In this document: positions 10,547-57,450 of the stretch, piece by piece | Layout of the letters: each line of letters opens with the position of its first letter | How positions within the stretch are numbered: the stretch's first letter is position 1 | Assembly (NCBI RefSeq): GCF_000152985.1 | Contig: NZ_CH672395.1 | Location: 227,849 to 291,848, forward strand | Reading direction: 5' to 3' | DNA length: 64,000 nucleotides | Source: Leeuwenhoekiella blandensis MED217 | GTDB lineage: Bacteria; Bacteroidota; Bacteroidia; Flavobacteriales; Flavobacteriaceae | Made by a program: the position numbers and the translations under genes | The notes under the pieces: model-generated | The model's database searches: none | Seen by the model: the letters and a program-made list of their open reading frames with translations, nothing else | What the model was told of the DNA's origin: nothing

Positions 10547-10598
10547 GAAATTTAGATACAAGCTTTGGAGCTATTTGTGCCTTTGGTGAAACCAATAA

Positions 10599-14636: not shown

Positions 14637-14926
14637 TACAAAAGTGTAACATACCTGATAACTAAATGTTTCAGCTAGATTATCAAACTATTAAAATTAC
14701 GGTTTAGTATATTAAATCAAAGTTTTTAAATAACTGTTTTGTAGTGCTTTACGGGGATTTAGAAATGTTATGTGTATGTTAGGTTGCATTATGATAATTT
14801 ATTAGCCGCGCATTTGTAAGAGTACCCGTATATTTGAGCCGATTTTTTAAAAGGTATTTGAATTCAGGTTCGTTTTAGAATACCTTCAGCAATAACCTCC
14901 GCAAAAGGAAAAAGAGCACACAGCAG

Positions 14927-15601: not shown

Positions 15602-15607
15602 GTACTT

Positions 15608-16586: not shown

Positions 16587-16684
16587 ATTCAACTGAAATT
16601 ATAAGGTTAAAATCCTGAAGGGTACATCAGTATTTTCAATAGGTAGATAACAAATAACTCTTTCGAGTTCTGAAGTTTTCAGCC

Positions 16685-16692
16685 TATATTTG
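16685..16692 (+). promoter_or_regulatory. Probable mrp-nifU promoter, -7 element
   Basis: TATATTTG matches the flavobacterial -7 consensus and lies 30 bases before the GTG start of the mrp gene. No clear TTG was found at -33. Confidence 0.5.
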
Positions 16693-16722
16693 CACCTTTA
16701 GAATCAATCTAAGTAAGACAAC

Positions 16723-36740: not shown

Positions 36741-36770
36741 AAAAAAGCCTCACCATTTAAGGTAAAGCTT
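36741..36770 (-). terminator. Terminator of the small RNA / carbohydrate operon
   Basis: On the minus strand AAGCTTTACC pairs along its full length with GGTGAGGCTT (two of the ten pairs are G-U) around a six-base loop, followed by a run of six Ts. Confidence 0.8.
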
Positions 36771-36870
36771 CTCAAAGGTTTCACTACAAAACCAGTTTTC
36801 GGTGTTACCCGAAAACAACACAACTTCTTTATAAAGTACCGAATCGGAGGTTCGGTTTAATTTCTTGAAT
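36741..36870 (-). ncRNA. Putative small structured RNA
   Basis: A minus-strand stretch of about 130 nt. It begins just after a TATTTTTG element at 36877-36884. It contains three hairpins: ACCGAA/TTCGGT (36838-36856), GTTTTCGG/CCGAAAAC (36795-36816) and GGTTT/AAACC (36778-36794). It ends in a 10-pair terminator stem with a T-run (36741-36770). It may be a separate small RNA gene or a structured 3' end of the carbohydrate operon. Comparison with flavobacterial RNA families such as Flavo-1 is suggested but not done. Confidence 0.5.
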
Positions 36871-36922: not shown

Positions 36923-37762
36923 TTAAGGTTTTAAGGCTATCAAAACGTAAACCGGCAAATGGTCTGAAGGATAATGTAAGTCTTTAGAATCACTTAATAT
37001 TGCGTGTTTTAGCACCTTGCTGGTGTTGCTCTTTACCTGAAAAATATAATCGATTCTTCGGGTTACCGGCTCGGTAAATTTGAAACCGTTAAATGTTCCT
37101 TTTGGGCCAAAAGCTCCGTTGGGCGCCAACTCATAGGTGTCATCAAGTTCGGTTTTTAATACGGCAATAGGAGCGCTGTCGGGTTCCAGATTTAGATCAC
37201 CGCTTACAAATGCAGGTAAGTTTTTAGGATTCAATTCTTTGATTTTTGCTAAGATCAAAGCGGAAGCATTTTTGCGCGCTTCAATACCTACGTGATCAAA
37301 ATGGGTGTTGAATACATAGAACTTTTCACCAGATTTTTTGTCTTTAAACAGTGCATAAGTACAAATACGCGGAAGCGCCGCATCCCAACCGGTAGATATT
37401 TTTTCAGGCGTTTCAGAAAGCCAGAAGGTATCATCTTCCAAGACTTTAAGTCGGTCTGCATTATAAAATATTGCCGAAAATTCACCTTTATTTTTTCCTT
37501 CGCGGCCAACACCTACGTGCTTGTAGCCGGTAAGATGCTTACCTAAATAATCCATTTGCTCGGGAAGTGCCTCTTGCACACCCATCACATCTGGCGCATA
37601 GAACAACACTTGACTGGTAAGATATTCTTTGCGCTTGCTCCAAGCATCAGCTCCGTCAGATTCGGTAGCCATTCTAATATTATAAGTCATTAAACTTACC
37701 TCTTGTGCGCTGAGTAGATTCAGGCAAAAGAACAGGCTTAAAAAGGCAAAGATTGATTTCAT
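36923..37762 (-). CDS. Secreted endonuclease/exonuclease/phosphatase (EEP) family hydrolase
   Basis: A 279-residue protein with a signal peptide (to about residue 19, LLSAQ). EEP fold motifs are LMTYNIRMATESDGADAW, DVMGVQEALPEQM with the metal-binding Glu, NTHFDHVGIEARKNAS, VSGDLNLEPDS and the closing SDHLPVYV. Many secreted EEP proteins in Bacteroidota lie in carbohydrate loci with unclear substrates. It is the last gene of the SusC/D operon, 82 bases after the sulfatase. Confidence 0.88.
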   Translation of the reverse strand: MKSIFAFLSLFFCLNLLSAQEVSLMTYNIRMATESDGADAWSKRKEYLTSQVLFYAPDVMGVQEALPEQMDYLGKHLTGYKHVGVGREGKNKGEFSAIFYNADRLKVLEDDTFWLSETPEKISTGWDAALPRICTYALFKDKKSGEKFYVFNTHFDHVGIEARKNASALILAKIKELNPKNLPAFVSGDLNLEPDSAPIAVLKTELDDTYELAPNGAFGPKGTFNGFKFTEPVTRRIDYIFQVKSNTSKVLKHAILSDSKDLHYPSDHLPVYVLIALKP

Positions 37763-37844
37763 TAGGGTTTAGTTTTTTTAAAAACTGAAAATTAAAACAA
37801 AAGGCTTCCATCAAATGTTGAGGCCGTGTTATGAGATCATTAAA

Positions 37845-39488
37845 CTATTGCATCGGCGTGCCACGAAGACGCTCAAAGTTTTTATACTCACGAGTAACGC
37901 GTGCTGCAGGAGCTTGTTCAAATTCTTTTTGAGTAACGCCGTAAACTTCTTGAACGGAATCAAGCTTTTTATGCAAGCGTTCGATCACATTGGCATACGC
38001 AGGATCATCAATTTTATTCTGAATTTCTTGTGGATCACTTTCCAGATCATAGAATTCCCAAGTGTCGATGTCATCATAAAAATGCATCAACTTATAGCGT
38101 TTGGTGCTGATTCCGTAGTGCTTTTTAACCATATGAAAGGCAGGAAAATCGTAGTAATGATAATACAGCACCTCTCTAAAATCATCATCAGCAACTTGTT
38201 GCTCTAATACCGGTCTCAAAGATTGTCCTTGCATATCGGCAGCCAAGTTGTTACCCTCGGCATAATCGAGAAAGGTTTGTGCAAAATCTAAATTTTGAAC
38301 CAGAGCTTCGCTTTGGCTTCCGGCTTTGATCGCTTTAGGATATTGAATCAATAAAGGCGTACGATAAGATTCTTCATACATATACCGCTTATCAAAAAAG
38401 CCTTTTTCACCTAAATAAAAACCTTGGTCAGAAGTATACACTACAATGGTGTTTTCGTCCAAATTATTGGCTTCCAGATAGTCTAAAATATTCCCCACGC
38501 CTTCATCAACCGCCGCGATCGTCGCCATATAATCGCGTAAATACCGCTGTCCTTTCCATTCGGCTAAGGCTTTTCCGTGCAAATCGGCTTTATGAAACGC
38601 ATCATTTTTTGCCTGATAAGCTGTATCCCAAGCTGCACGTTGTTCCGCCGTCATGCGTTCAAAATCGGTAGTCCAGGGATTGTGTGCCAACTCAGAACTT
38701 CCAAGTTTCTTGGTCATTTTAAGATCGTGACCTTCATACATGTCCTCGTAAATCGTCTGTAATTGCTCTTTGGAAGCCTGTGATCCTTCGTGATCTGTAA
38801 AATAGGTTTCTGGTAACGGAAAGTTTATCGAGTCGTATTTGTTAGCATAACGCAGCGCCGGCATCCAGTTTCTATGTGGTGCTTTGTGGTGTACCATCAT
38901 AAAAAAAGGTTTTGTAGTGTCGCGTTGTTGCTCAAGCCAACTAATCGCATCTTCAGTGATGATATCTGTGGCGTAACCTTCAATGCGTGTGGTGTCGCCT
39001 GCTTCAATAAAATCTGGGTTATAATAATTGCCCTGATCTTTGATGATTTTCCAGTGATCAAAACCTTGCGGATAGCCGTGTAAATGCCATTTTCCCAAAA
39101 TAGCGGTGGTATAGCCTAATTCCTGAAGTTTTTTAGGAAGCGTGGGTTGATCGCCATCAAAACGATCTCCATTTTGTCTAAATCCATTTATATGACTGTG
39201 TTTTCCGGTAAGAATCACTGCTCGACTCGGCCCACAAATGGAATTGGTAACATAGGCCCGATCCATGCGCATTCCGTTTTGAGCGATTCGATCAATGTTG
39301 GGAGTAGGTGCCAACTGACTCACCGGATGCCCGTATGCGCTTATTGCCTGAAACGCGTGGTCATCAGACATGATGAAAATAATGTTAGGTTTTTCTGGTT
39401 TTGCTTCAGTGATTTCAGTGTTTTTTGTTTCGGTTTTACAGGAATAAAATGCCGAAATTATTAGAAGTACCGAAAGAAGCTTTTTCAT
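37845..39488 (-). CDS. Sulfatase lipoprotein (type I, S1 family)
   Basis: A 547-residue lipoprotein (MKKLLSVLLIISAFYSC, lipobox Cys17). The sulfatase signature CGPSRAVILTGK starts at Cys85, which would be changed to formylglycine. Metal ligands are Asp42/Asp43 in IIFIMSDDHAF and Asp-Gln in YTSDQGFYLGEKGFFDKRYMYEES. It should remove sulfate esters from a carbohydrate in the periplasm or at the surface. Start moved to 39488: an ATG 30 bases upstream would overlap the previous gene and break the signal peptide. No anaerobic or FGE maturase is encoded in the window. Confidence 0.92.
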   Translation of the reverse strand: MKKLLSVLLIISAFYSCKTETKNTEITEAKPEKPNIIFIMSDDHAFQAISAYGHPVSQLAPTPNIDRIAQNGMRMDRAYVTNSICGPSRAVILTGKHSHINGFRQNGDRFDGDQPTLPKKLQELGYTTAILGKWHLHGYPQGFDHWKIIKDQGNYYNPDFIEAGDTTRIEGYATDIITEDAISWLEQQRDTTKPFFMMVHHKAPHRNWMPALRYANKYDSINFPLPETYFTDHEGSQASKEQLQTIYEDMYEGHDLKMTKKLGSSELAHNPWTTDFERMTAEQRAAWDTAYQAKNDAFHKADLHGKALAEWKGQRYLRDYMATIAAVDEGVGNILDYLEANNLDENTIVVYTSDQGFYLGEKGFFDKRYMYEESYRTPLLIQYPKAIKAGSQSEALVQNLDFAQTFLDYAEGNNLAADMQGQSLRPVLEQQVADDDFREVLYYHYYDFPAFHMVKKHYGISTKRYKLMHFYDDIDTWEFYDLESDPQEIQNKIDDPAYANVIERLHKKLDSVQEVYGVTQKEFEQAPAARVTREYKNFERLRGTPMQ

Positions 39489-39492
39489 AAAA

Positions 39493-40398
39493 TTATTTTT
39501 TTTCAACACGCTCTTCATGCTGAATCATTTGATTTTCATTGACCACCGCATTGATGAATGTGGCGATTTCATTTACAAAAGCATAACCCAGATTTGCCCA
39601 GTCATGATTACCCTGAGGCGCCGTAAGTAGGGTGTAGGAGGCATCCAGATCTTTTAATCGAGCTGCTATAAAAGCATCTCCATCCAGCGGAAGAAACCCA
39701 GGAGTATCCGGTGCGCAAAAGTGATGCGGCTGACTGTTATACGGTACCAAATTGTCTGCGTCTCCGTGAATGAAAAACCCGGGTACAGCATTTTCTTTGG
39801 TGATGTAACGTGCATCTACAACCGCGCCCGCAAGAGAAACCACAGCTGCAATTTTAGGATATGCTCCCAGATCTTTAAAGTCGGGATGATTGGCCATATA
39901 AGCCGTGTTTAAAATCCCTTCAGCACCGGCACTGCTGCCTGCAAGAATGATCTTTTCAGCATCAAAAAGGAATTCAGTATTCGATTTTAAATAGGCGATC
40001 GCTTTTAAAATATCTGCGGTGGTTTGCTTAAAGGTGTCCATTTTCTCTGAAGCAGGACACGCACATCCAAAACCGGTGGCTTTGCCTTTTCGGGTAAGAT
40101 TATAACTCATAGAAGCCACCGCATATCCCTTTCTGGCTAGCGTTTGAGAAAACTCAACCTCCATCGGATTGTCGCGTTTTCCACCGCTAAAACCACCACC
40201 GTGAACGAGTATGATTAGTGGTCGGTCACTGTCCTTTTCAGCTTGCTTTGCAGTATAAAAATCCAGCTTAAGCGTGTCGCTGTAGGTATGTGTAGATTTA
40301 ACCAGATCGGCATAGACTTGTCCGACAAATTTTTCCTGTGCTTGCGCGACAAGAGTGATAAAAAAGAAAACAAATAGAATACTGATCTGGCGTTTCAT
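39493..40398 (-). CDS. Secreted alpha/beta hydrolase, carboxylesterase-like
   Basis: A 301-residue alpha/beta hydrolase with a signal peptide (to about residue 20, VAQAQ). The oxyanion-hole motif is ILVHGGGFSGGK, the nucleophile elbow ILAGSSAGAEG, the acid region FIHGDADNLVP and the His in PQGNHDWANLG. The form resembles acetyl-xylan or other carbohydrate esterases. It lies between GH3 and the sulfatase with short gaps, so it probably removes acyl groups from the substrate of the locus. Confidence 0.83.
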   Translation of the reverse strand: MKRQISILFVFFFITLVAQAQEKFVGQVYADLVKSTHTYSDTLKLDFYTAKQAEKDSDRPLIILVHGGGFSGGKRDNPMEVEFSQTLARKGYAVASMSYNLTRKGKATGFGCACPASEKMDTFKQTTADILKAIAYLKSNTEFLFDAEKIILAGSSAGAEGILNTAYMANHPDFKDLGAYPKIAAVVSLAGAVVDARYITKENAVPGFFIHGDADNLVPYNSQPHHFCAPDTPGFLPLDGDAFIAARLKDLDASYTLLTAPQGNHDWANLGYAFVNEIATFINAVVNENQMIQHEERVEKK

Positions 40399-40409
40399 CT
40401 GGCTAAAAA

Positions 40410-42686
40410 TTAGTTTAAAATAAAGGTTTCTTTAAGCGAGGCATTACTGTCTCCGCCTACAAAAACTTCAAATTCTCCGGGTTCTGAAATAAATTCAAGC
40501 GAACCGTTATAGAATTTTAAGTCTTCTGCTTTTAAAGTTAGTTCAACGGTTTTGGTCTCTCCTTGCTTTAAAGACACTTTTTGAAATCCTTTTAAGGTGC
40601 GCATAGGTGGCGTAATGCTACGTACCACATCGTGAATATAGAGTTGTACTACTTCGGTACCGTCGTAAGCTCCGGTATTGGTTACATCAACCATCACGGT
40701 AACGTCTTCATTTTGCCCGATGCTTTTTGAACTCAATTTTAAATTGCTGTACTCAAAAGTGGTGTAGCTTAATCCGTAACCAAAAGCAAGCGCAGGAGCA
40801 TTTGGCGTGTCTAAATATTGCGATTTGAACTTTAAGAACTCAGCAGATGGCGCAGGACGTCCGGTGGTTTTCATACTGTGATAGACCGGAATCTGACCTA
40901 CATTTTGTGGCCAGCTGGCTGTTAATTTTCCTGAAGGATTATAATCTCCAAAAAGCACATCAGCAACAGCATTACCGGCTTGAATTCCCGGATGCCAAAC
41001 CTGTAAAATACTTACCGGAAGCGCTAATTCTTCAGTGATGTCTAGCGGTCTTCCGCTCATTAAAACAAGAACTACAGGCTTGCCTATTTTTACTAATTCT
41101 TGAATTAAGGTTTTTTGACTTTCAGGAATAGTAATATCGGTGCGGCTTGAAGATTCCCCGCTCATTTCGGTAGCTTCCCCTACAACAGCAACTACCACAT
41201 CTGCAGTTTCAGCATTCTGAAGTGCTTCTTCAAGTAGTGTTTCAGGAGTTGCTTCTGAAATTTCAATACGCGGGCCAAATACATTTATTTTTTTCGCGTA
41301 AGCGGTATCATTAGAAATATTAGCACCTTTTGTATAGCTGATCTCAGCATTAGGAGCCACATTTTTTAAACCTTCAAAAATAGGTGTTGAAAGCTGTGGG
41401 TCACCGGTAGGAGCCCAAGTCCCTAACATATTGTTTTTATTGTTAGCCAAAGGACCAATCAAGGCAATCTTGGCCGTTTTGTCTAGCGGAAGCGTCTTGT
41501 TTTCATTCTTCAACAACACAAAAGATTTGCGGGCTGCATCACGCGCAATTTCTTTATTTGCTGCGGTGAGAATATCACGCTCTGGACGCTTACTGTCTGA
41601 ATATTTATAAGGATCGTCAAAAAGACCAAGCTTGTATTTTGCCTCCAAAATACGACGGCATGCGTTGGTGATGGTGGCTTCAGAAACTTTGCCTTCGTCA
41701 ACCGATTTTTTAAGCGTAGTTAAGAAGCCTTCGCCTACCATATCCATATCTAAACCGGCATTGATGGAAAGCGCAGAAACGGCTTGTAAATCACCCAATC
41801 CGTGAGCGATCATTTCATTTACAGAGGTGTAATCTGAAACTACAAAACCTTCAAAGCCCCATTGCTCGCGGAGCAAATGGGTTAATAACCATTTGTTTCC
41901 ACTTGCAGGAACACCGTCTACGTCGTTAAACGAACTCATCACACTTTCTGCACCGGCGTCTATCGCGGCTTTGTACGGTGGCAAGTATTCGTTAAACATT
42001 TTTACACGGCTCATATCGGTCGTGTTGTAATCGCGACCACCTTCGGCAGCGCCGTAAAGCGCAAAATGTTTTACGGTTGAGATCATCGTGTTTTCTTCGG
42101 TAAGATCTTCTTGCTGATAACCGGTAACCATGGCTTTTGCGATCGCCGAACCTAAATAAGGATCTTCACCGGCACCTTCAGAGATACGCCCCCAACGTGG
42201 GTCGCGCGCAATGTCAACCATAGGAGAGAAGTTCCAGTTGATTCCGTCTGCAGTGGCTTCTTTTGCAGCGATCTGAGCGGTTTTTTCGATCAATTCCATA
42301 TCCCAACTGCTGGATAATCCTAACGGAATAGGAAAAGTGGTTTTGTACCCGTGAATGATATCAGAACCGATCAAAAGCGGAATTCCCAATCGGGTGTTTT
42401 TTACAGCGATCTCTTGGGCCTGACGAATTTTATCAGGTCCGGTCACGCCAAATAATCCACCTACATTTCCGGCTTTTATTTTTTCTTCAACATTCTTACT
42501 TACTACAGATCCGGTTGCGACACCGCCGCCGGGCGTAAGCAAATTAAGTTGACCTATTTTTTCTTCTAAGGTCATTTTTTTTAGCAAGGCTTCAACTTCA
42601 GGAATAGGTTGGGCTTCCTGAGCGAAGGTTTGCATGCCGATAAGAATAACGGCAGCAAGAATTAGTTTTAAGGTTCTATTTTTCAT
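40410..42686 (-). CDS. Glycoside hydrolase family 3 beta-glucosidase (BglX-like)
   Basis: A 758-residue secreted GH3 enzyme with a signal peptide to about residue 22. Domain order: N-terminal GH3 barrel with GLDMDMVGEGF and the nucleophile Asp in VVSDYTSVNEMI (near 283), the alpha/beta sandwich with VLLKNENKTLPLDK, GEATEMSGESSSRTDI carrying the likely acid/base Glu (near 508), and a C-terminal fibronectin III-like domain. It cuts single glucose units from short beta-glucans. With GH144 neighbours the substrate is probably sophoro-oligosaccharides (beta-1,2). Confidence 0.94.
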   Translation of the reverse strand: MKNRTLKLILAAVILIGMQTFAQEAQPIPEVEALLKKMTLEEKIGQLNLLTPGGGVATGSVVSKNVEEKIKAGNVGGLFGVTGPDKIRQAQEIAVKNTRLGIPLLIGSDIIHGYKTTFPIPLGLSSSWDMELIEKTAQIAAKEATADGINWNFSPMVDIARDPRWGRISEGAGEDPYLGSAIAKAMVTGYQQEDLTEENTMISTVKHFALYGAAEGGRDYNTTDMSRVKMFNEYLPPYKAAIDAGAESVMSSFNDVDGVPASGNKWLLTHLLREQWGFEGFVVSDYTSVNEMIAHGLGDLQAVSALSINAGLDMDMVGEGFLTTLKKSVDEGKVSEATITNACRRILEAKYKLGLFDDPYKYSDSKRPERDILTAANKEIARDAARKSFVLLKNENKTLPLDKTAKIALIGPLANNKNNMLGTWAPTGDPQLSTPIFEGLKNVAPNAEISYTKGANISNDTAYAKKINVFGPRIEISEATPETLLEEALQNAETADVVVAVVGEATEMSGESSSRTDITIPESQKTLIQELVKIGKPVVLVLMSGRPLDITEELALPVSILQVWHPGIQAGNAVADVLFGDYNPSGKLTASWPQNVGQIPVYHSMKTTGRPAPSAEFLKFKSQYLDTPNAPALAFGYGLSYTTFEYSNLKLSSKSIGQNEDVTVMVDVTNTGAYDGTEVVQLYIHDVVRSITPPMRTLKGFQKVSLKQGETKTVELTLKAEDLKFYNGSLEFISEPGEFEVFVGGDSNASLKETFILN

Positions 42687-42716
42687 TTGGGTTGCAATTT
42701 TGTTTTTGTGTGTATT

Positions 42717-43493
42717 TTAGTTTTTGGTATGACTGAAAAGCCACTGGAGAAAGTCAGGCTCTGCAAAAGCAGGATCCCAACTGTTATGATTGGCGTGCTC
42801 GTAAACCGTAACACGCGGTTTTGCACCGGCTTCAAGCATCGCGGTTGCCATTTGTAAACTGTAAGTGGGTTTTACCACATTATCATCGGCACCGTGAATG
42901 ACCCAAAATGGGGTTTTTAAAGCATAATTTTTTACAGGTTCTGTACTGCCGGCACCACAAATAGCGATCGCAGCAGCAAAGGTGTCGGGATGGCGTTGCA
43001 CCATTTCATAGGTTCCCATTCCGCCCATGGAGAGTCCGGCAATGTACACGCGTGAAGTATCTACTTTTCCTTCTTCAATAAAAGAAGAGACGAGTTCGCC
43101 GGCCATTTTTAAATGCGGCGTAGGTTTTTGATCGGGGTGAAAGGTGATCCCAATAGGATAATTGCTACGGTCAACATCTACATTGGCCCAGTATGAATCT
43201 TTAGGGCACTGCGGAAAGATCACAATCGCTGGAAAAGCATTCCGCATTCCTGGATTTGCAAACAATGCAGACCCGTGTGTAAGCTGTGATTGGTTGTCTG
43301 ACCCGCGCTCTCCCGCACCATGCAAGAACAAAACCAAAGGGTATTTTTTAGTTTGATCATAGTTCAAAGGATACTGAATGCGGTATTGCAAACTGTCTCC
43401 TTCACTGTGATATACTGCTTGTTCAAAACTGTCTTGAGCTAAAGCCAATGTACTGGTGAAAAGCAAAAAGAATATGGAAAATAAGGTCTTCAT
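42717..43493 (-). CDS. Secreted alpha/beta hydrolase (PHB depolymerase-/esterase-like)
   Basis: A 258-residue hydrolase with a signal peptide (to about residue 19, ALAQ). It has LVLFLHGAGERGSDN as the oxyanion region, VYIAGLSMGGMGTYEMV with the nucleophile Ser, and WVIHGADDNVVKP with the acid. The catalytic His is in YEHANHNSWDPAF. The type is often found in Bacteroidota carbohydrate loci as a predicted esterase. It starts one base after the GH144 stop. Confidence 0.84.
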   Translation of the reverse strand: MKTLFSIFFLLFTSTLALAQDSFEQAVYHSEGDSLQYRIQYPLNYDQTKKYPLVLFLHGAGERGSDNQSQLTHGSALFANPGMRNAFPAIVIFPQCPKDSYWANVDVDRSNYPIGITFHPDQKPTPHLKMAGELVSSFIEEGKVDTSRVYIAGLSMGGMGTYEMVQRHPDTFAAAIAICGAGSTEPVKNYALKTPFWVIHGADDNVVKPTYSLQMATAMLEAGAKPRVTVYEHANHNSWDPAFAEPDFLQWLFSHTKN

Positions 43494-43494
43494 A

Positions 43495-44892
43495 TTATTG
43501 AGGTATGGTGTAGTTAAAATTGAGTTTGTCTAGCCCGGCTTGTACGCTTTCATTCTGCATAAAGAGACGCCAAAGCAAGCCACTGCGGTAATTCTCGATC
43601 ATTACAATTATTGGGCCTTGATCTATTGCCAGATAGGCTTCGGCTACGGTATAATTTTGTTGCGGACTAAAAGCATCATAAAAGCCGGCAGGTCCTAGCA
43701 GTATGTTTTCAAGATCATAAAAACTGCGTAAAGCTGCCATGGATTCTTGGGGTGTATACGGGAACGAACTCAATGCAGCAGTAGGTGAAATCACGCCGGT
43801 GTCATCACCCGGGCGATGCGCTTTGTAGCCTAAACTTCCGTCTGCATTTAGGGTGTAGCTTGCGGTTAATCCCCACAAATCCTGACCATAATCGCGCCAT
43901 CCTAATGGATTTTGAACGCAATAGGCGTAGTTGCTTAATGCGTGATTTACCGTTGCGGTCTCATAATTTACATAAGCATCAGAAAGTCCAAAAGGATTTA
44001 AACCTAAATAAGAATAATGCGCCCAAAAAAGTGGGCCACCGGTTTGCTCTGCTCCCGCGTGTTTCACTTCAAGGGGATACCCAAAAGCATTCGCCGAAGA
44101 GGCGATAGCTCCATTTTGTGCCCAGCCTTCCTTATAAACTTCAGGTTCAATACTGAAATTTTCTGAAGCTGCAGCTAGTATGTAGGTGATGAGCGTCTCG
44201 TTATAGCCTTGTAATTTTAGGTTGATCGCAAAGTCATTATTGGGGCTCCAATGCCAGTACAGCGCATTTTCGCCTTGCGTAAACCAATTCCATTCTACTG
44301 CGGAAACTAGATCAAAAGCTTGTGTAGCTAAGGCTTGTTCATCGCTTGAGCCGGATTTAAAATATTCACCCACGGTGATCAATCCTTGAGCAAGGAATGC
44401 AGTTTCAACTAAATCTGCCCCGTCATCTAAATCTGAAAACGGAATCACTTCACCGGTGCTTCCGTTAAGCCAGTGTGGCCAGGCACCGTGAAAACGATCT
44501 GCGTGTTCCAGAAAATCAAGGAGCGTTGTAAGTCTGTTAAAGCCTTCGGTTCTGGAGATAAAGCCACGTTCTATTCCTAACAAGATCGCCATCATTCCAA
44601 AGCCGGTTCCGCCGGTAGTGACAATATTTTGATCCTGACTAGGATTAGCAGGAAGGTAACGCTCTCGCGCACCGCCCGATTCCGCGTTAGCAAAATCCCA
44701 GAAATACTTAAAGGTTTCTTCTTGAGTGAGGTCTAATAATTCGTCATCGGTCAACTCCGGTTCAGGTGTGGGGTTTTCACCCCCATTGCCTTCTTCGGGA
44801 GTTTCCTCAGGAAGTTCAGCGACAGCATCGCCGCTGTCGCTGGAACACCCAAGTAGTGCTAGTGTTAGCGCTATGTAAATAGAATACTTAAT
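43495..44892 (-). CDS. GH144-type putative beta-1,2-glucanase lipoprotein, non-canonical start
   Basis: A glycoamylase-domain (PF10091) protein close to its upstream neighbour. The core shows DELLDLTQEETFKYFWDFAN, GGTGFGMMAILLGIERGFISR, HGAWPHWLNGSTG, and DDGADLVETAFLAQGLIT with likely catalytic acids. The first usual start in frame is a TTG at 44754, but that would remove the export signal. Upstream in frame is KYSIYIALTLALLGCSSDSGD, a clear lipoprotein signal. It can only be started from ATT at 44890-44892 (joined to the stop of the upstream gene) or CTG at 44899-44901. Confidence 0.85.
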   Translation of the reverse strand: MKYSIYIALTLALLGCSSDSGDAVAELPEETPEEGNGGENPTPEPELTDDELLDLTQEETFKYFWDFANAESGGARERYLPANPSQDQNIVTTGGTGFGMMAILLGIERGFISRTEGFNRLTTLLDFLEHADRFHGAWPHWLNGSTGEVIPFSDLDDGADLVETAFLAQGLITVGEYFKSGSSDEQALATQAFDLVSAVEWNWFTQGENALYWHWSPNNDFAINLKLQGYNETLITYILAAASENFSIEPEVYKEGWAQNGAIASSANAFGYPLEVKHAGAEQTGGPLFWAHYSYLGLNPFGLSDAYVNYETATVNHALSNYAYCVQNPLGWRDYGQDLWGLTASYTLNADGSLGYKAHRPGDDTGVISPTAALSSFPYTPQESMAALRSFYDLENILLGPAGFYDAFSPQQNYTVAEAYLAIDQGPIIVMIENYRSGLLWRLFMQNESVQAGLDKLNFNYTIPQ

Positions 44893-46261
44893 CTTCTTCA
44901 GTTTTTAAATAAGGGCTTGAAAAGCCTAATTTTCTCAATCCGTTAAGGACGTCTTCATTGTTCATAAACAGATCCCACAATAATCCGCTGCGGTAATTCT
45001 CGATCATTACAGGAATTGGTCCTTGATCAATCGCCAGATAGCGCGGCAAATACCAATCTTCTTCAAGGCTAAACGCATCGTAAGGGCCATAAGTTCCTAC
45101 AAGAGAATCCAGATCGGTGTACAAATGCTCTAAAAAGGCCTTGCTTTCTTTAGGGGTGTAAGGCATAGACGATAATGCAGCAGTGGGCGAGATCACACCG
45201 AGGTCATTGCCAGGGCGGTGACCCGCATAACCCTTCATAGAATAACTAGATGTCATTCCCCAAAGCTCAGGACCGTAGCCTTTGAATTCTTTAGGATTAT
45301 CTAGTGCATACTCATATTGAATTTTTGCGTGATTTACATTCAGTTTCCAATATTCACCAAATTGATCAGTCAAGCCTTTTGGGTTAAGACCTAAGTAGCT
45401 GTAATGTGCCCAAAATAAAGGGCCTACCGGAGCATCATCATTATGCTCATAATGGTTAAGCACCGTGCGCAAACCGTACATTGTGGTATCTTTTGCGATC
45501 TGACCATCAACAGCCCAACCCTTTTCATAAACTTCTTTTGAAATAGGGTGGGTAGGAGAAGCAGCAGCAAGAACATACATTACCAAAGCTTCGTTATAAC
45601 CACCTACGGGGAAATTCATTTCCCAGCCTACATTAGGGGACCAATGCCAGTACAGCACGTCTTCACCTTGTGTATACCAATCCCATTCTACTTCTTCCCA
45701 CATACGCTGAATTTGCGCTGCGAGTGCCTGTTCTTCTTCAGAACCGTCTTTATAATATTCTGCAACGCTAAGTAAACCTTGAACCAAAAAAGCGGTTTCA
45801 ACAAGATCTCCACCATCATCATTTTTACTGAAAGGTTTTACCTTCCCTGTGGTGCCGTCCAGCCAATGCGGCCAAGCCCCGTGAAAACGATCTGCATTAT
45901 CTAAAAAATCAACTATTTTCTGAAAGCGGGCAAAAGCCGAATCCTTTGGGATAAACCCACGTTCTGCTCCGGCAACGAGAGCCATTAGGCCAAAACCGGT
46001 TCCACCTATGGTGACCACATTTTTATCATCAGAAGGGTAGATGCCGTCCATATGAATACGCTCTGGCGCTAAGCCTGAATCTGTATTGGCACCTTCCCAA
46101 AAGTAACTGATGGTCTGTTTTTGAACTTCGTCAAGAAGTTGGTCTTCTTCTGTGGAAGCTGGGGAAGTGGTGGCAGCCACTTCCCGGTTTTCTTCCGCAG
46201 TATTTTGATTCTTACAAGCAACGAGTGTTGCAAGAACCACTACAATTAAAATAAAACGCAT
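44888..46261 (-). CDS. GH144-type putative endo-beta-1,2-glucanase lipoprotein
   Basis: A 457-residue glycoamylase-domain (PF10091, GH144) enzyme. Lipoprotein signal MRFILIVVVLATLVAC with Cys16. It has YFWEGANTDSGLAPERIH, HGAWPHWLDGTTGKVKPF at 127-144 and NDDGGDLVETAFLVQG (147-162), where the acidic residues fit the proposed active site of GH144. Characterised GH144 enzymes cut beta-1,2-glucan to sophorose and short chains. It follows susD by 18 bases and overlaps the next paralogue. Confidence 0.9.
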   Translation of the reverse strand: MRFILIVVVLATLVACKNQNTAEENREVAATTSPASTEEDQLLDEVQKQTISYFWEGANTDSGLAPERIHMDGIYPSDDKNVVTIGGTGFGLMALVAGAERGFIPKDSAFARFQKIVDFLDNADRFHGAWPHWLDGTTGKVKPFSKNDDGGDLVETAFLVQGLLSVAEYYKDGSEEEQALAAQIQRMWEEVEWDWYTQGEDVLYWHWSPNVGWEMNFPVGGYNEALVMYVLAAASPTHPISKEVYEKGWAVDGQIAKDTTMYGLRTVLNHYEHNDDAPVGPLFWAHYSYLGLNPKGLTDQFGEYWKLNVNHAKIQYEYALDNPKEFKGYGPELWGMTSSYSMKGYAGHRPGNDLGVISPTAALSSMPYTPKESKAFLEHLYTDLDSLVGTYGPYDAFSLEEDWYLPRYLAIDQGPIPVMIENYRSGLLWDLFMNNEDVLNGLRKLGFSSPYLKTEED

Positions 46262-46279
46262 AAAGCTTCTTTAATGTGT

Positions 46280-47701
46280 TTAGTACCCAGGATTCTGAGT
46301 CATCTCTGGAGTTTGAACCAATTGGTTGTTTGGAATTGGGAACAACTCGTGTTTTCCGGTTACAAAGGTTTTTCCGTCTGCTGCCATTGCTGCTTGAGCC
46401 TGACCGGTACGATTTAAATCAAACCAGCGGTCGTGCTCCATAGCTAACTCCAGGCGACGTTCTGTCCAGATCGCTTGGCGTACAGTTCCTTGATCTGTAG
46501 ACGTTACAGCCGGTAAAGAAACACGTGTTCTTACTTGGTTAAGCGGTGCCAAAGCTGCGCTGGTTTGTCCAAGTTCGTTTAATGCTTCAGCACGAATAAG
46601 GAGTACTTCCGCGTAGCGTAAAACTCTGATGTTTTTATCACCGTCACTTTGACCTGCATTTGAAGAAGAATAGGCCTTCTCGTTATAACGTGGATTTTCT
46701 ACACCGGCATTTACTTCACGACCGTCAAAAAGGGTCTCGCCGGCAAAAATGATGGTTGCATCACGACGAATGTCATCACCTGCTGCGTTAAACGCATCTT
46801 CTAGATTTTGAGAAGGTGTGTTGAAACCCCATCCCCAACCACCGGTACCACGGGCACCTTGGGTTTGAGAATATTGTTGCACTCCGTGCTGAGGAATTTC
46901 TCCACGCGCTTGGATTTCAAATAAAGAACCAGGACCGTTTTCACCGGTTTCTCTCCAGATATTCGCATAATCAGGATCAAGACTGTATTGGTTAGACGTG
47001 ATCACATTGTTTGCCATATCTGCGGCATCTTGCCAGCGTTCTTGGTATAAATACACCTTAGCCAATAAACCCTGAGCAGCACCTCTGGTTGCACGACCTA
47101 AATCTTCGGTCGCGTAGTCATTTTTTAAGGGAAGCGCGTCAATCGCATCCAATAAATCTTGCTCGATATACGCGTATACTTCGTCAACCGGTGCACGCTC
47201 TACAAGGTCAATTTCCTGAATAGGAATTGCTCCAAACGAACGTACTAACCAGAAATAGTTCAGCGCTCTTAAAAATTTAGCTTCTCCTACAACTCTAGAG
47301 CTAGGAACCTGAGTTTGCCCTTCATAGTTTTGCGCGATATCAATAGCTTGAGATGCGCGCCCCACAGTTTTATACCACTGCGTCCACATTGCAGTTACCG
47401 AACCAGACGAAGAAGTAAAAGTCAAATCGTCTAATACGCGCTTGTCTGCCCCAGAATCGGTAGGCGAACTTCCTTTATCTGAATTGTCAGAAATGATTTC
47501 GGTGATTCCCAGGTAAGAGAATGCATAAGAGAAATCGGTATGCATCCCATATACTGAAGTAAGAAATTCAACCGGTAAATAGTCTTCACCATCTTCGGCG
47601 ACAGGATCTACAATATCTACATCTTCAACAAAGTCATCACAACTGCTAAAGACAAGCCCGGTAAAAAGGCTTAATACGAGTGTTTTATATATAAATTTCA
47701 T
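46280..47701 (-). CDS. SusD/RagB-family glycan-binding lipoprotein
   Basis: Surface lipoprotein that binds oligosaccharide and covers the SusC channel. The start is set at the ATG at 47701, which gives MKFIYKTLVLSLFTGLVFSSCDDF with lipobox Cys21. The frame extends 34 codons upstream into susC, but that part is not a signal. The SusD pattern includes a TPR-like N-terminal half (FLRALNYFWLVRSFGAIPI) and the C-terminal VLRYAEVLLIRAEALNELG and AIWTERRLELAMEHDRWFDLNRTG. It lies 13 bases after susC. Confidence 0.95.
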   Translation of the reverse strand: MKFIYKTLVLSLFTGLVFSSCDDFVEDVDIVDPVAEDGEDYLPVEFLTSVYGMHTDFSYAFSYLGITEIISDNSDKGSSPTDSGADKRVLDDLTFTSSSGSVTAMWTQWYKTVGRASQAIDIAQNYEGQTQVPSSRVVGEAKFLRALNYFWLVRSFGAIPIQEIDLVERAPVDEVYAYIEQDLLDAIDALPLKNDYATEDLGRATRGAAQGLLAKVYLYQERWQDAADMANNVITSNQYSLDPDYANIWRETGENGPGSLFEIQARGEIPQHGVQQYSQTQGARGTGGWGWGFNTPSQNLEDAFNAAGDDIRRDATIIFAGETLFDGREVNAGVENPRYNEKAYSSSNAGQSDGDKNIRVLRYAEVLLIRAEALNELGQTSAALAPLNQVRTRVSLPAVTSTDQGTVRQAIWTERRLELAMEHDRWFDLNRTGQAQAAMAADGKTFVTGKHELFPIPNNQLVQTPEMTQNPGY

Positions 47702-47714
47702 AGTGCTTTGTTTT

Positions 47715-50700
47715 TTATAATTTGAAGTTTGCTCCAACAATGAACGAACGAGTGTTAGGATATGCTGAAAGCTCGATACCCGTTGTATTTGTAGGGTCTC
47801 CATTTTGATTTAGTTCTGGAGTAAATCCTGAATAATCTGTAAACATAAATGGGTTTTGAAGCGTTACATACACGCGTGCACTGCTTACAAATGAAGAGAT
47901 TTCAGGTAATGTGTATCCTACGGTAATGTTGTTGATTCTAAAGTAAGAACCATCTTCTAGGTAATACGAAGAAGCTTCAACATCACGATCTGCTCCGGGA
48001 TTCACGTTAGTAGAGCCTGGTCCTGTCCATCTTTTGTTAAAGATGTCTTCAGAAATATTTTCTCCACCTAGTCTTGTGCTGTAAAGTCCGTTATAAACCT
48101 TGTTACCGCCTACACCAAAACCAGAAACACTTAAGTCAAAGTTTTTGTAGTTAGCACCTATATTGATCCCGTAGTTATACGTAGGAATATAAGAACCGAA
48201 ATATTTTTTATCACGGTCATCAATAACACCATCATCATTTTGATCTACATAACGCAAGTGACCTGGAGCAGCACTACCTAAAGAAGTGTTGTTGTCGATC
48301 TCTTCTTGTGTTTGCCATACGCCGTCTGCTTCATACATCCACCAGGCAAAAATAGGCTGGCCTTCAGCAAGACGTTTTGTGATACGACCGTTACCTAAAC
48401 TACCACCAATGGCACCGTCATAAGCAGGTCTCACATTTTGTACGCGGTTTTTATTTGTAGAAAGGTTAACACCAATGTTATATGTAAAGTCAGAACCTAT
48501 CTGATCTCTCCAGTTAACTAAGAATTCAAAACCTGAGTTTGAGATCTCTGCAGCTTCATCAAAGAAGTTGCTGCTGAATTCTGAGTTTAATAACGGACGC
48601 ACATTTAAAATAGCGTTAGTATTTAAACGGCTATAGTAATCGATCGTACCTGAAAGTTTTCTGTTGAATAAAGCAAAGTCAAAACCAGCTTCAAATTCTT
48701 CAGTCACCTCCCAAGAAAGTGGGATTGCCGGTGTTCCTAAAGCAGCACCTACAATTAAGCTTTGAGTAGGTCCAAATACATAGTTGGTGTTTCGGCTTCC
48801 TGATCCTGCGTTGATCGACTGCACGTTAAATGGAATCGCCTGGTTACCCAATTTACCCCAACCTGCAAACAATTTCAGGTTGTCTAACACGCCGTTGTCT
48901 TCCATAAAAGCTTCGTTAGTCATCGTCCAACCTAAACTTACCGCCGGGAAGTACCCAAAGAAGTTGTTGTCTCCGGTAGCAAAATCACTAGTACCATCAC
49001 GTCTTAATACTGCACGTACATAGTAGCGCTGATCGTAGTTGTATTCTACACGACCAAAATAAGATTGTAGATTGGTGCTTTGATACGTATCGCCATCTAC
49101 GTTGTCATTAAACAACTGGCTTGTTCTCAAGTTGAAATTACGCAGATTAGGATCAGCCTCTACATCGTAAGCCTGAGACTCTGTAAATTCTCCACCTTGA
49201 TAGTTCTCACGGCTGATTCCTACGGTTGCGCTCAAGTTGTGCTTGTCAAAAGACTTGTCATAGGTAAGGAAACTTTCAATATTCCAACGATAAGATTCTG
49301 TACGTCTAATCGTGTAAGAGTTGTTTGCATATTCTGTAGAAACCACACCATCGTCATTAGGCACACGTTGTGCATCAAAAAATGCTTCGGTTCGGTTAGG
49401 GTCGGCATTTAACCACTGACTTCTAATATCTGTAAAGCTCTTGCTGGTTGCATAATATTTTGTCGCACCAAAACGGGTAGTCAACATTAAATCATCTGTA
49501 ATGTCAAGTTCTGCAGCAATTTGTCCCTGAAGACTGGTTGTATTGATCTGCTGATCTTGATAATATACTTGAGAAACCGGGTTTCCGTGTGAATTTAAAC
49601 GACCTAGAGTTTCTCCCGGTTGTGTGTTAAAATCTACAACTCCGGTAGTTTGATTAACAAAAGATTGCCCAAAAAGCCCATTGTCATAACGTACAGGAAC
49701 CAAAGGAGACTGGCGATATGCCGTACTGAAAGCTCCAAAGGGTTTTGGTGTTTCGTTAGTATACGCCACGTTTAAGTTTTGTACAAAACGAAGACGGTCA
49801 TTGAACAGGTGATAGGTGTTGTTACTGCGTATCGTACCACGATTGTATTGCTGACCTTCTAAAATACCTTTTTCCTGATACAGGTTGTAGCTTAAGAAAT
49901 AGTCGATGCTTTCTCCCGCTCCGGAAACCGAAAAACTATTGTTGTTGATCGTACCGGTTTGTAAGAGTTCGTCATACCAATCTGTATCGTAACGCTGGTT
50001 TTGCTGAAGCAAGAAACCACCGTTTGCAGCACTTTCTTCATTAAAGTATTGCGTGTACTGTGCTGCATTTGCCATTTTTACCGGATTCAAAATGGTTTTT
50101 GCACCGTAATACGACTCAAAGTTAAACGTGGTTTTGCCTTGTTTACCTCGTTTAGTAGTAATCAAAATAACCCCGTTTGCTGCACGTATCCCGTAAATGT
50201 TAGCATAAGAAGCACCCTTAAGGAAGTCGATAGACTCGATATCGTTAGGGTTGATGCTTGTGATGTCAGATAAAGGTTGACCGTCTACAATATAAAGCGG
50301 CGATCTACCACCTTCTGCAGTACCTAAACCACGCATCAAAACCGTAGGCGTAGAACCGGGTGCATCGTTTGCGATAATATTTACACCGGCAACTTTACCT
50401 TGAACAGAGGTTAATGCGGAAGTAGCGGGCTGCTTGGTAATCTCTTCGTTATCAACAGAAACGATCGCACCGGTGATATCAGATTTTTTCTGGTTACCAT
50501 AACCTACTACCACAACTTCGTCTAATTCGCTAGACTCATCTTGCAACGCGATGTTATATACATCGTCATTAGTAATAGAAAACGTTTGCGTCTGGAATCC
50601 TAAATACGTGATGCGTACTTGATCTCCTACGACAACTTCTAAGGAGTAGTTTCCGTCAAAATCGGTAACAGCATATTCGTTTTTGTCAACGACTTTTAGT

Positions 50701-50825
50701 TCTGCTCCCGGAAGCGGTACATCACGGGTATCGCGTACTGTACCGGTAACTGTTTTTGTCTCCTGCGCTTGCACTCCTAAGGTGATCAGCGACAAAAGAA
50801 ACAGAAGGGTTATTTTAAGTTTCAT
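47715..50825 (-). CDS. SusC/RagA-family TonB-linked outer membrane glycan transporter
   Basis: A 1036-residue TonB-dependent transporter. It has a signal peptide to about residue 20, then CarboxypepD_reg (KTVTGTVRDTRDVPLPGAELKVVDKN) and the SusC signature region VVVGYGNQKKSDITGAIVSV. The plug follows with IESIDFLKGASYANIYGIRAANGVILITTKRG, and the barrel ends in SFIVGANFKL. It imports oligosaccharides together with SusD. It is the first gene of a nine-gene minus-strand operon. The 224-base region upstream gave no full-consensus promoter. Confidence 0.96.
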   Translation of the reverse strand: MKLKITLLFLLSLITLGVQAQETKTVTGTVRDTRDVPLPGAELKVVDKNEYAVTDFDGNYSLEVVVGDQVRITYLGFQTQTFSITNDDVYNIALQDESSELDEVVVVGYGNQKKSDITGAIVSVDNEEITKQPATSALTSVQGKVAGVNIIANDAPGSTPTVLMRGLGTAEGGRSPLYIVDGQPLSDITSINPNDIESIDFLKGASYANIYGIRAANGVILITTKRGKQGKTTFNFESYYGAKTILNPVKMANAAQYTQYFNEESAANGGFLLQQNQRYDTDWYDELLQTGTINNNSFSVSGAGESIDYFLSYNLYQEKGILEGQQYNRGTIRSNNTYHLFNDRLRFVQNLNVAYTNETPKPFGAFSTAYRQSPLVPVRYDNGLFGQSFVNQTTGVVDFNTQPGETLGRLNSHGNPVSQVYYQDQQINTTSLQGQIAAELDITDDLMLTTRFGATKYYATSKSFTDIRSQWLNADPNRTEAFFDAQRVPNDDGVVSTEYANNSYTIRRTESYRWNIESFLTYDKSFDKHNLSATVGISRENYQGGEFTESQAYDVEADPNLRNFNLRTSQLFNDNVDGDTYQSTNLQSYFGRVEYNYDQRYYVRAVLRRDGTSDFATGDNNFFGYFPAVSLGWTMTNEAFMEDNGVLDNLKLFAGWGKLGNQAIPFNVQSINAGSGSRNTNYVFGPTQSLIVGAALGTPAIPLSWEVTEEFEAGFDFALFNRKLSGTIDYYSRLNTNAILNVRPLLNSEFSSNFFDEAAEISNSGFEFLVNWRDQIGSDFTYNIGVNLSTNKNRVQNVRPAYDGAIGGSLGNGRITKRLAEGQPIFAWWMYEADGVWQTQEEIDNNTSLGSAAPGHLRYVDQNDDGVIDDRDKKYFGSYIPTYNYGINIGANYKNFDLSVSGFGVGGNKVYNGLYSTRLGGENISEDIFNKRWTGPGSTNVNPGADRDVEASSYYLEDGSYFRINNITVGYTLPEISSFVSSARVYVTLQNPFMFTDYSGFTPELNQNGDPTNTTGIELSAYPNTRSFIVGANFKL

Positions 50826-55527: not shown

Positions 55528-56367
55528 ATGACCAACTTTCTTAACACAAGTACCTTGATCGCGATTATAATTCTGCACGCTTTTGTGGGAAATAATGACC
55601 AGTATTTCAAAAAAAAGAATCCGGTCCATATCATAACGACCTGGGAACTTCCTGATGCGCTTGAGGAGGTGTCCGGACTTTCTTGGATTGGAGATCAAAA
55701 ACTGGCAGCAATAGAAGATGAGTCTGGTTTGATCTATATCTATGATCTAGCCGAAAAGCGCATCGAACGCATTATTGAATTTGGCGATGATGGCGATTAT
55801 GAAGGTGTTGCCGTGGTGGGTAAAGATGCTTATGTAATGCGCAGTGACGGCTTGCTGTTTGAAGTGCTTGATTATGCAGCAACGCATCCAGAGACTAAAA
55901 CCTATCAGTCAGCGATGTCACACAAAAATAATATTGAAACCCTGGCGGTTGACCCCAAAAACCATCGCTTGCTTTTTGCACCAAAAGATTTGGATCCCAA
56001 CGACGAAGATATCAAAGGGATTTATGCATTTGATCTTAAAAAGCATATGATGTTGCCCGACTTGGTCGCTCCGATTGCGATGAAAGACAAGGCGTTTAAA
56101 AAGTTTGAGAAGCATAAAAGCTATCGTACGTTTAGACCTTCAGATCTGGCGGTTCATCCTAAAACCGGAGAACTGTATATTTTAGAAGGGGTGAATCCTA
56201 AACTTATTATTCTCGATACAACCTACGCCATCAAAAAGGTTTACGAGTTGGATGAAGATGATTTTGCGCAACCTGAAGGCATCACTTTTAGTCCGGAAGG
56301 TCGTTTGTTTATTTCGAATGAAGCCAGCGGCGGGACTCCCAATATCCATGAAGTTGAAATAGAGTAG
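55528..56367 (+). CDS. SdiA-regulated family beta-propeller protein
   Basis: A 279-residue protein with an N-terminal hydrophobic segment (STLIAIIILHAFVG) acting as signal or anchor. The repeated beta-propeller strands include LEEVSGLSWIGDQKLAAIEDESGLIYIYD and FGDDGDYEGVAVVGKDAYVMRSDGLLFEV. ILEGVNPKLIILD and QPEGITFSPEGRLFISNEASGG follow. This is the SdiA-regulated (PF06977) pattern. The function is unknown, and some relatives bind metals. Confidence 0.85.
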   Translation: MTNFLNTSTLIAIIILHAFVGNNDQYFKKKNPVHIITTWELPDALEEVSGLSWIGDQKLAAIEDESGLIYIYDLAEKRIERIIEFGDDGDYEGVAVVGKDAYVMRSDGLLFEVLDYAATHPETKTYQSAMSHKNNIETLAVDPKNHRLLFAPKDLDPNDEDIKGIYAFDLKKHMMLPDLVAPIAMKDKAFKKFEKHKSYRTFRPSDLAVHPKTGELYILEGVNPKLIILDTTYAIKKVYELDEDDFAQPEGITFSPEGRLFISNEASGGTPNIHEVEIE

Positions 56368-56529
56368 GTAGGTTTGACTTTAAATTGCCTTTACAATTCT
56401 TAACCCAATGCTAACCTGTAGAAGTAGCATAGCTTAAGGCTTTATTGTTTTTTTGGAAGGATTCTCGAAGGCAAAGCACCGAAGGGAACATTTTGCTCGT
56501 AATCCCAAATAACAATTACCTTAGCGCTT

Positions 56530-57450
56530 ATGAAAACCTTACTTTTAGCAGGTCTTGTAGTAGCGACTTTGTTCAGCTGCAAATCAAAATCTGAAGAATC
56601 AAAAGTGATGCATACACCACAAAAAGATCGTTTAAATATTCAGGTGCAGGGGCACAGAGGCGAACGCGGTAATTTACCGGAGAATTCGATACCTGCGTTT
56701 TTAGGCGCCTTGCGCAAAGGCGTTGATGTATTAGAATTGGATGTGGTGATCTCTAAAGATCAGCAGGTGGTGGTAAGTCATGAGCCGGTGATGCTTCCTT
56801 TGTATATGCTCACGCCGGAAGGGGATTCGATTCCGCAGGATAAGGAAAAGGAATATAACCTGTACCAAATGGACTACGCCGAGATCAAACAGTTTGACGG
56901 CGGTTCTAAAGGAAATGTGCGCTTTTCACAGCAGCAAAAAATGAAAACCTACAAACCTTTACTGAGCGAAGTTTTTGATACGGTTGCTGCAAGCATTAAG
57001 GAGGAAGGGTTGAAACCCGTAAAGTTCAACATCGAGATCAAATCAGTACCTGAAGAATACGATGTGTTTCAACCCCAACCAGAAGCTTTTGTAGATCTGG
57101 TGATGGGCGTAATTCAGGAAAAACAGATGGAAGAACACATCAATCTTCAGTCTTTTGATCCGGCGATATTAGAAGTGGTACATACCAAGTATCCTGAGAT
57201 CGAACTGGCGTATTTGGTTGGTGAAAACACCTATGCCGAAAACAAAACCAAGCTGAGTTTTCAACCTGAGATCTACAGTCCGTACTTTAAATTACTAGAT
57301 ACTGCTGAAGTCGCGCAAATTCATAAAGACGGTTTAAAAGTCATTCCGTGGACGGTCAACGAACCGGAAGATATTGATGCGGTAATTGCGCTTAAAGTAG
57401 ATGCCATCATCACCGATTATCCCGAGCGTGTGCTTGAAAAATTAAAATAA
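56530..57450 (+). CDS. Glycerophosphodiester phosphodiesterase lipoprotein
   Basis: A 306-residue lipoprotein (lipobox FSC, Cys17) of the GDPD family, which frees glycerol phosphate from glycerophosphodiesters. Active-site blocks: GHRGERGNLPENSIPAF (His and Arg, Glu-Asn), DVLELDVVISKDQQVVVSHEPV (Glu, Asp, His), KFNIEIKS (Glu) and WTVNEPEDIDAVIALKVDAIITDYPERV at the end. It probably acts in the periplasm. It follows the SdiA-regulated gene by 162 bases in the same direction. Confidence 0.92.
   Translation: MKTLLLAGLVVATLFSCKSKSEESKVMHTPQKDRLNIQVQGHRGERGNLPENSIPAFLGALRKGVDVLELDVVISKDQQVVVSHEPVMLPLYMLTPEGDSIPQDKEKEYNLYQMDYAEIKQFDGGSKGNVRFSQQQKMKTYKPLLSEVFDTVAASIKEEGLKPVKFNIEIKSVPEEYDVFQPQPEAFVDLVMGVIQEKQMEEHINLQSFDPAILEVVHTKYPEIELAYLVGENTYAENKTKLSFQPEIYSPYFKLLDTAEVAQIHKDGLKVIPWTVNEPEDIDAVIALKVDAIITDYPERVLEKLK

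Follow-up and report, generated by a model that had tools for sequence, protein, structure and literature searches.

Organization of the operon

The stretch of DNA considered here (the window: 64,000 nucleotides of Leeuwenhoekiella blandensis MED217, contig NZ_CH672395.1, whose positions serve for all coordinates) carries on its minus strand a nine-gene operon that runs from 50825 to 36923, with a SusC gene first and the gene of an EEP-superfamily hydrolase last, as read from open reading frames and family scans (Table 1). The operon joins a SusC/SusD pair, two GH144 proteins and a GH3 protein to a sulfatase, and the subject of this text is that sulfatase, its tie to GH144 and the polysaccharide that the two may serve to degrade. 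Every gene named in a sequence-only reading of this DNA is recovered, in place and on the minus strand, by the open reading frames and the Pfam/TIGR profiles, including the sulfatase with its intact CxPSR motif (C95-G-P-S-R), the two different esterases and the EEP hydrolase. From SusC to EEP the genes are separated by 13 bp, 18 bp, a 5-base overlap (the GH144a/GH144b junction), 1, 30, 11, 4 and 82 bp. Since no gap exceeds 82 bp and the sulfatase gene starts only 4 bp after that of the BD-FAE-type esterase, the nine genes are likely to be co-transcribed. The start of SusD is moved from 47803, which falls within susC, to 47701, and that of the sulfatase is most likely at 39488. By inspection, SusD, both GH144 proteins and the sulfatase have lipoprotein-type signals, and the GH3, EEP and both esterase proteins have ordinary signal peptides. 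SusCD, GH144 and GH3 thus stand together in a single operon, the combination by which a polysaccharide utilization locus (PUL) for beta-1,2-glucan is recognized.

Table 1. Genes and features of the operon and its borders, in window positions
Feature	Position	Strand	Evidence
SusC-type TonB-dependent outer membrane transporter	47715..50825	-	TIGR04056, 761.6 bits (cut-off 368.25)
SusD-type surface lipoprotein	46280..47701	-	PF07980 and PF14322; lipoprotein-like N-terminus at 47701
GH144a, endo-beta-1,2-glucanase-like lipoprotein	44888..46261	-	PF10091, 261 bits; 5gzh, 585 bits
GH144b, second endo-beta-1,2-glucanase-like lipoprotein	43495..44892	-	PF10091, 247 bits; 5gzh, 507 bits
Est1, secreted alpha/beta-hydrolase esterase	42717..43493	-	S9/Abhydrolase_2/Esterase Pfam; best solved relative 3doh esterase, 150 bits
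GH3, BglX-type beta-glucosidase	40410..42686	-	PF00933/PF01915/PF14310; NF011678 BglX, 877 bits (cut-off 666)
Second secreted esterase, BD-FAE type	39493..40398	-	PF20434, 74.8 bits; solved relatives weak, best 33 bits
S1_11-type sulfatase, GH144-linked branch, lipoprotein-like	37845..39488	-	PF00884 and PF16347
EEP-superfamily hydrolase, possible sugar-6-phosphatase	36923..37762	-	PF03372
Regulator with LuxR-type helix-turn-helix	51050..53797	-	PF00196, 24.4 bits (cut-off 23.5); 224 bp before susC
Two terminator-like hairpins after the last gene	36742..36816	-	pattern scan

Both GH144 proteins are predicted to be endo-beta-1,2-glucanase-like, on the family profile and on closeness to CpSGL of Chitinophaga pinensis (PDB 5gzh/5gzk), an endo-beta-1,2-glucanase that is their nearest solved relative. 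Their CpSGL scores are far above those with the chain of BDI_3064 (357.5 bits for GH144a, 346.5 for GH144b), which we take to be the sophorohydrolase. The residues aligned with D135, D139, E142 and E211 of CpSGL are identical in both proteins, and changing any of these strongly cuts CpSGL activity, according to the accessible part of the source (PMC12102758). With CpSGL nearest and the key acidic residues kept, "sophorohydrolase", the label in the sequence-only reading, is not the best one, and the two proteins do not fall away from active CpSGL, as they would if they lay outside the active GH144 clades. PF10091 is wider than GH144, as it also matches frames of ~2900 amino acids at 73-97 bits, which are probably cyclic glucan synthases. 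The earlier view of the GH3 protein as a beta-glucosidase agrees with its passing the BglX equivalog model; its solved relatives all score above 900 bits (3u48, 939.5; 5tf0; 9urf; 5xxl, 907), and the last is a Bacteroides beta-1,2-glucan GH3. The best solved relatives of the EEP protein are 3mpr (173.3 bits) and the mannosyl-6-phosphatase 4c1r (172.7 bits), making a sugar-6-phosphatase possible.

The start of GH144b is unusual. The listed reading frame begins at an internal TTG, while the frame is open upstream to the lipobox; truncation is ruled out, given the open frame and the conservation of the signal in congeners. Translation probably starts at 44892, on an ATT codon that overlaps the GH144a stop codon. 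No ATG, GTG or TTG precedes the lipoprotein signal in the window or in five Leeuwenhoekiella species (L160, L161, L165, L166, L167), all of which share the ATT overlapping the stop (ATTAA, window 44890-44892, minus strand), followed deeper in the frame by an ATA. In three more loci of the genus (L162-L164), an ATG stands at about the position of the ATT. The arrangement looks like a non-canonical start with a stop-start overlap, although conservation of the ATT is in part forced, since GH144a coding overlaps the same bases.

A sulfatase branch linked to GH144

The sequence-only reading had left the sulfatase without a subfamily. By sequence, its nearest solved relatives are 9s03 (837.5 bits), 5g2v (BT4656; 541.9 bits, 52% identity) and 7p24 (BT3177; 504.2 bits, 47% identity). 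Its predicted model (pLDDT 86.6) superposes on 5g2v with Z 50.9 and a root-mean-square deviation of 1.8 over 485 residues, followed by 7p24 (Z 50.3) and an Akkermansia sulfatase (Z 47.6); L-galactose-6- and galactose-6-porphyran sulfatases give Z 42.9 to 42.6, and phosphonate monoester hydrolases, which have the same fold, rank 49-50 with Z 34. This closeness in sequence and modelled fold to S1_11 enzymes points to S1_11 as the subfamily. The host genome has nine sulfatase-family matches, eight of them above the cut-off and the operon gene among them. It also has six matches to FGE-type maturase homologues (best 240 bits); no anaerobic sulfatase maturase scores above the cut-off there.

When 397 Flavobacteriaceae genomes are searched with PF10091 and with the window sulfatase (all counts being among the matches listed), PF10091 is present in 107, with G069 and G182 below the family cut-off. 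The sulfatase matches, the window itself aside, fall into two sets, one at 59-86% identity (partial matches 63-69%) and the other at no more than 54%. Members of the upper set come from 66 of the 397 genomes and 52 genus labels, which were assigned for part of the genomes only, and PF10091 is found in 66/66 of these genomes. No genome has the branch without PF10091, with the proviso that three candidates were scored per genome, so that a short branch fragment could hide among the 290 genomes without PF10091. A second search with lax limits of the other 41 PF10091 genomes and of five congeners with neither gene returns nothing above 55% identity, and the 55% match is a fragment. The sulfatase and GH144 occur together in one member and are both missing from a congener in 14 genera, and eight genera include a member with GH144 but no sulfatase.

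The same linkage is seen in gene neighborhoods. Among 97 GH144 loci (nine of the 107 PF10091 genomes were not fetched, and the window's own genome is not included), the sulfatase lies within the fetched stretch in 63, a figure that is not a blind rate, as the position of the sulfatase was known when many of the stretches were chosen. Its median distance from GH144 is 4.3 kb; in 55 of the 63 it shares its strand with every GH144 gene, and in eight it is on the other strand, 9.4-12.6 kb away. Loci with at least two GH144 genes have it in 58 of 72 cases, versus 5 of 25 for loci with one. In two branch-positive genomes (G015, G299) it is on another contig or ~20 kb off, outside the fetched stretch. 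The remaining operon genes are also distributed unevenly between loci with and without the sulfatase: BD-FAE in 32/63 versus 4/34, EEP in 23/63 versus 5/34, Est1 in 44/63 versus 17/34 and GH3 in 59/63 versus 20/34. The linkage is strong, and it establishes a lasting genetic partnership between this sulfatase branch and GH144. Mean identity across loci is 0.66 for the sulfatase, 0.51 for SusC and 0.48 for SusD; given how far SusC and SusD diverge from locus to locus, uptake is more variable than the enzymes. Mantel correlations, which leave species phylogeny uncontrolled and are not relied on, are modest for sulfatase-GH144 (r 0.369, none of 2000 permutations as high), and r is 0.236 for sulfatase-SusC (1 of 2000), 0.15 for sulfatase-SusD (26/2000) and 0.18 for GH144-SusC (64/2000). 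A hypergeometric value computed for the loci is very small, but it takes no account of relatedness and carries no weight here either.

In a tree of 145 sulfatases, the 126 upper-set proteins form one clade without outsiders (local support 0.656, stem branch 0.458), the 19 S1_11-like outgroup proteins having been hand-picked from the next best matches. Conserved in 126/126 members are D52, D53, C95, K106, K143, H145, K212, H215, D364, Q365 and K377, the S1 catalytic and metal-binding residues. The residues that distinguish the branch, present in at most one of the 19 outgroup proteins, include F113, D175, T255, Y261-E262-G263-H264, W282, F286, F461 and D482. BT4656 and BT3177, which are N-acetylglucosamine and N-sulfoglucosamine 6-O-sulfatases, resemble the branch in fold, catalytic residues and a putative Asp/Arg/His triad placed by alignment (below), but BT4656 lacks T255, YEGH, W282, F461 and D482 at the aligned positions. 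F113 and N217 are common to the branch and BT4656 and are therefore not branch-specific in a wider set. PDB 9s03, entitled "Putative sulfatase", has T255, YEGH, W282, F461 and D482 in alignment and, judged by these residues and its score, is a structure of the GH144-linked branch. It differs in having a Ser at the formylglycine position, which is Cys in 126/126 members; it could be either an engineered mutant or a native enzyme of the Ser type. No paper on 9s03 was found in the open-licence PubMed Central (PMC) literature, and the entry is not among the 50 fold matches listed for the sulfatase model. Nor does that literature, in its accessible parts and including PMC9122927 and PMC10405439, yield a subfamily assignment or a test of a branch sulfatase. 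In three loci (L035, L046, L055) the branch sulfatase match is counted with one in-frame stop each.

A scan of named genomes, which overlap the 397, gives a similar picture for the best 80 of 106 relatives. These belong to Leeuwenhoekiella (L. palythoae being closest, at 94%), Zobellia, Maribacter, Flagellimonas, Winogradskyella, Salegentibacter and others, and also to Marivirga (L177), Flavobacterium daejeonense and Sinomicrobium; marine or halophilic genera predominate among them. GH144 lies within the examined flank in 71 of the 80, and seven of the other nine keep GH3 beside the sulfatase, several of the flanks being short or the PUL running beyond them. Across a phylum sample of 247 genomes, PF10091 occurs in 85, of which 65 are outside Flavobacteriaceae, while sulfatase matches of at least 59% occur in six genomes besides the window's own, all of them Flavobacteriaceae. 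As the branch goes unseen outside the family in this sample despite these 65 genomes, it probably tracks habitat or lineage and not GH144 as such, a distribution that agrees with the marine/terrestrial contrast drawn by Lapebie et al. (2019, PMC6499787).

Candidate substrate and its rivals

The characterized enzymes nearest to the sulfatase by fold (BT4656, BT3177, BuS1_11 and Bacple_01701) are 6-O-sulfatases, according to entry titles and the accessible part of a review (PMC10154612). The same part of the review has S1_11 enzymes use a His at O3 and, at O4, an Asp/Arg pair, all highly conserved, and adds that an N-acetyl-binding region is absent in about half of the subfamily, above all in aquatic members. 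By alignment, D376 and R378 (126/126 branch members) and H462 (125/126) would be this triad. From the 6-O-sulfatase relatives and the apparent fit of the triad, we infer that the enzyme removes 6-O-sulfate from a gluco-configured non-reducing end, and it is predicted to act in exo mode as a glucose-6-sulfatase, opening the substrate to GH3.

The operon is best read as a polysaccharide utilization system for a beta-1,2-glucan that carries 6-O-sulfate, probably acyl and perhaps phosphate groups (probability about 0.6). In the order of steps, cell locations and regiospecificity proposed here, the two GH144 lipoproteins would cut the chain internally and SusCD would take in the fragments. The two esterases would then strip acyl groups, the sulfatase would remove 6-O-sulfate from the non-reducing-end glucosyl unit and GH3 would free glucose stepwise; the EEP protein may take off 6-phosphate. 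The decorated or marine-derived beta-glucan suggested in the sequence-only reading survives, as a decorated and probably sulfated marine target, as the best interpretation and matches a published hypothesis, the beta-1,2-glucan itself being a putative carrier of the sulfate. The hypothesis is that of Lapebie et al. (2019), who report GH144 PULs of marine Bacteroidetes with an added sulfatase and propose as target a sulfated version of a terrestrial glucan; these PULs resemble the present one in gene content and proposed target, but the accessible part of that paper gives no subfamily, phylogeny or regiospecificity, whereas the present analysis delimits one S1_11 branch. In Maribacter dokdonensis 62-1, one GH3, two GH144 and sulfatase genes likewise cluster with susCD, and GH144 is found in all Maribacter and Zobellia (PMC8072126). 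That cluster differs from the window in lying upstream of an alginate PUL, with CRISPR-Cas between, and in its plural "sulfatase genes", to which the accessible text assigns no subfamily. That marine beta-1,2-glucan may be sulfated is therefore an idea already in print; what is new is the narrowing of the sulfatase to a 6-O-type S1_11 branch linked to GH144.

Several findings weigh against this reading. No report of a sulfated beta-1,2-glucan or of a sulfated osmoregulated periplasmic glucan (OPG) was found in the open-licence PMC literature. S1_11 also holds L-galactose-6-sulfatases, so the family does not fix the sugar. The 14 of 72 two-GH144 loci that have no sulfatase in the fetched stretch show that GH144 does not need it, and EEP (28/97 loci) and BD-FAE (36/97) are far from universal. 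Branch sulfatases also occur away from GH144, which is absent from the examined flanks in L214 and L234. In L240 (genome G143), a second branch sulfatase belongs to a separate PUL without GH144 (7271-17076), which has GDPD, a laminarinase-like GH16, a multihaem-cytochrome/TPR-like protein, GH31 and GH92; the set would again suit a glucan, though alongside other sugars. None of nine opg loci sought as possible producers (below) has an annotated sulfotransferase, a weak negative given their incomplete gene tables and the restriction of the search to plasmids. Finally, scans of one representative per cluster attribute to the 97 loci a laminin-G lipoprotein (56), GH43 (41; the representative has weak solved relatives only), GH2 (15) and GH97 (9).

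Since GH43, GH2 or GH97 is added in many loci, the target in other genera may be more than a homoglucan. The same additions support a sulfated heteropolysaccharide in which beta-1,2-glucosyl stretches are only a part, or where GH144 even acts on a related linkage. A Bacteroides GH144 locus offers a precedent, as one of its enzymes, from GH35 and called a beta-1,2-galactosidase in the title, is inactive on beta-1,2-gluco-oligosaccharides in the accessible part of the source (PMC11739564). The window operon, however, has none of GH43, GH2, GH97 or the laminin-G lipoprotein, and its glycosidases are limited to the two CpSGL-like GH144 proteins and one BglX-like GH3, so a heteropolysaccharide target is considered unlikely here.

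A slightly less probable alternative is that the operon acts on OPGs whose decorations are removed by the esterases and the EEP protein, the "sulfatase" cutting a phosphodiester or some minor group instead of sulfate. OPGs carry succinyl or acetyl groups and phospho-alcohol groups. A plasmid collection was searched for such loci; OpgG matches 76 records and OpgH 56, from which nine alphaproteobacterial loci were picked by eye, with marine, intertidal, sea-cucumber gut and saline soil sources where stated (two have none). Three of them, all on Sulfitobacter plasmids, have opgG-opgH-opgC (with opgG and opgH in pieces in the third), and two (Dinoroseobacter and Roseicitreum) have opgH beside a sulfatase-fold protein and a CDP-alcohol phosphatidyltransferase. 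Loci of these kinds could account for the esterases and the phosphatase of the consumer, but not for its sulfatase. The resemblance of EEP to a mannosyl-6-phosphatase, the fold shared by sulfatases and phosphonate monoester hydrolases and the missing sulfotransferase annotations all suit OPGs as the target. On the other side, the sulfatase is far nearer to the 6-O-sulfatases (Z 50.9 to 42.6) than to the phosphonate hydrolases, it keeps the S1_11 residues, and the branch was not seen outside Flavobacteriaceae in the phylum sample, Marivirga L177 coming from the named scan.

The weakest alternative makes the sulfatase a passenger that serves some other sulfated substrate while the operon consumes plain beta-1,2-glucan. 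It would suit the two-GH144 loci without it, the eight sulfatases on the other strand and the single branch members without GH144 nearby, but is improbable in view of the 66/66 co-occurrence, the 14 genera with joint absence, the 4 bp spacing and a conservation exceeding that of SusC and SusD.

Candidate producers and neighbouring genes

The reading of the operon as a system for a 6-O-sulfated beta-1,2-glucan can be extended to the polymer itself. It is tentatively suggested, at rather less than even odds, that an undescribed, widespread marine 6-O-sulfated beta-1,2-glucan exists, bacterial and OPG-like with acyl and phosphate groups, and that dozens of Flavobacteriaceae genera consume it by means of a dedicated S1_11 branch that acts as an exo-D-glucose-6-sulfatase. 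If a sulfated marine beta-1,2-glucan exists, it would be a common carbon source in the sea, and the branch with its signature residues would provide both a genetic marker for its users and an enzyme tool with which to find and sequence the polymer.

The opg loci show further features. At L301 (4657-10819) and L303 (4689-10499), opgH adjoins a sulfatase-fold protein, a CDP-alcohol phosphatidyltransferase and an LPG-synthase-like membrane protein, possibly a phospho-alcohol decoration system for marine OPGs. On a marine Paracoccaceae plasmid (L298:3141-10458), bglX, an "oligosaccharide amylase", an alpha/beta hydrolase and an opgG-like gene stand together, perhaps as a proteobacterial cluster for OPG use. 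In Sulfitobacter sp. W074 (L305:6086-9641), opgG and opgH are annotated in short pieces, as if decaying, and opgC is intact.

Upstream of the operon, the LuxR-type regulator likely controls it; a best match to this protein, full or partial, is found in 55 of the 97 GH144 loci. The pattern scan finds 19 terminator-like hairpins across the region, versus a shuffle mean of 15.0 (standard deviation 4.6), and a sigma-70 scan gives 21 versus 30.6 in shuffles, the sigma-70 model not representing promoters of the host phylum. Beyond a major facilitator superfamily (MFS) gene upstream of the operon lies a divergent pair (55528-57450) encoding an SdiA-regulated/phytase-like protein and a GDPD lipoprotein, whose tie to phospho-decorations is only a thought.

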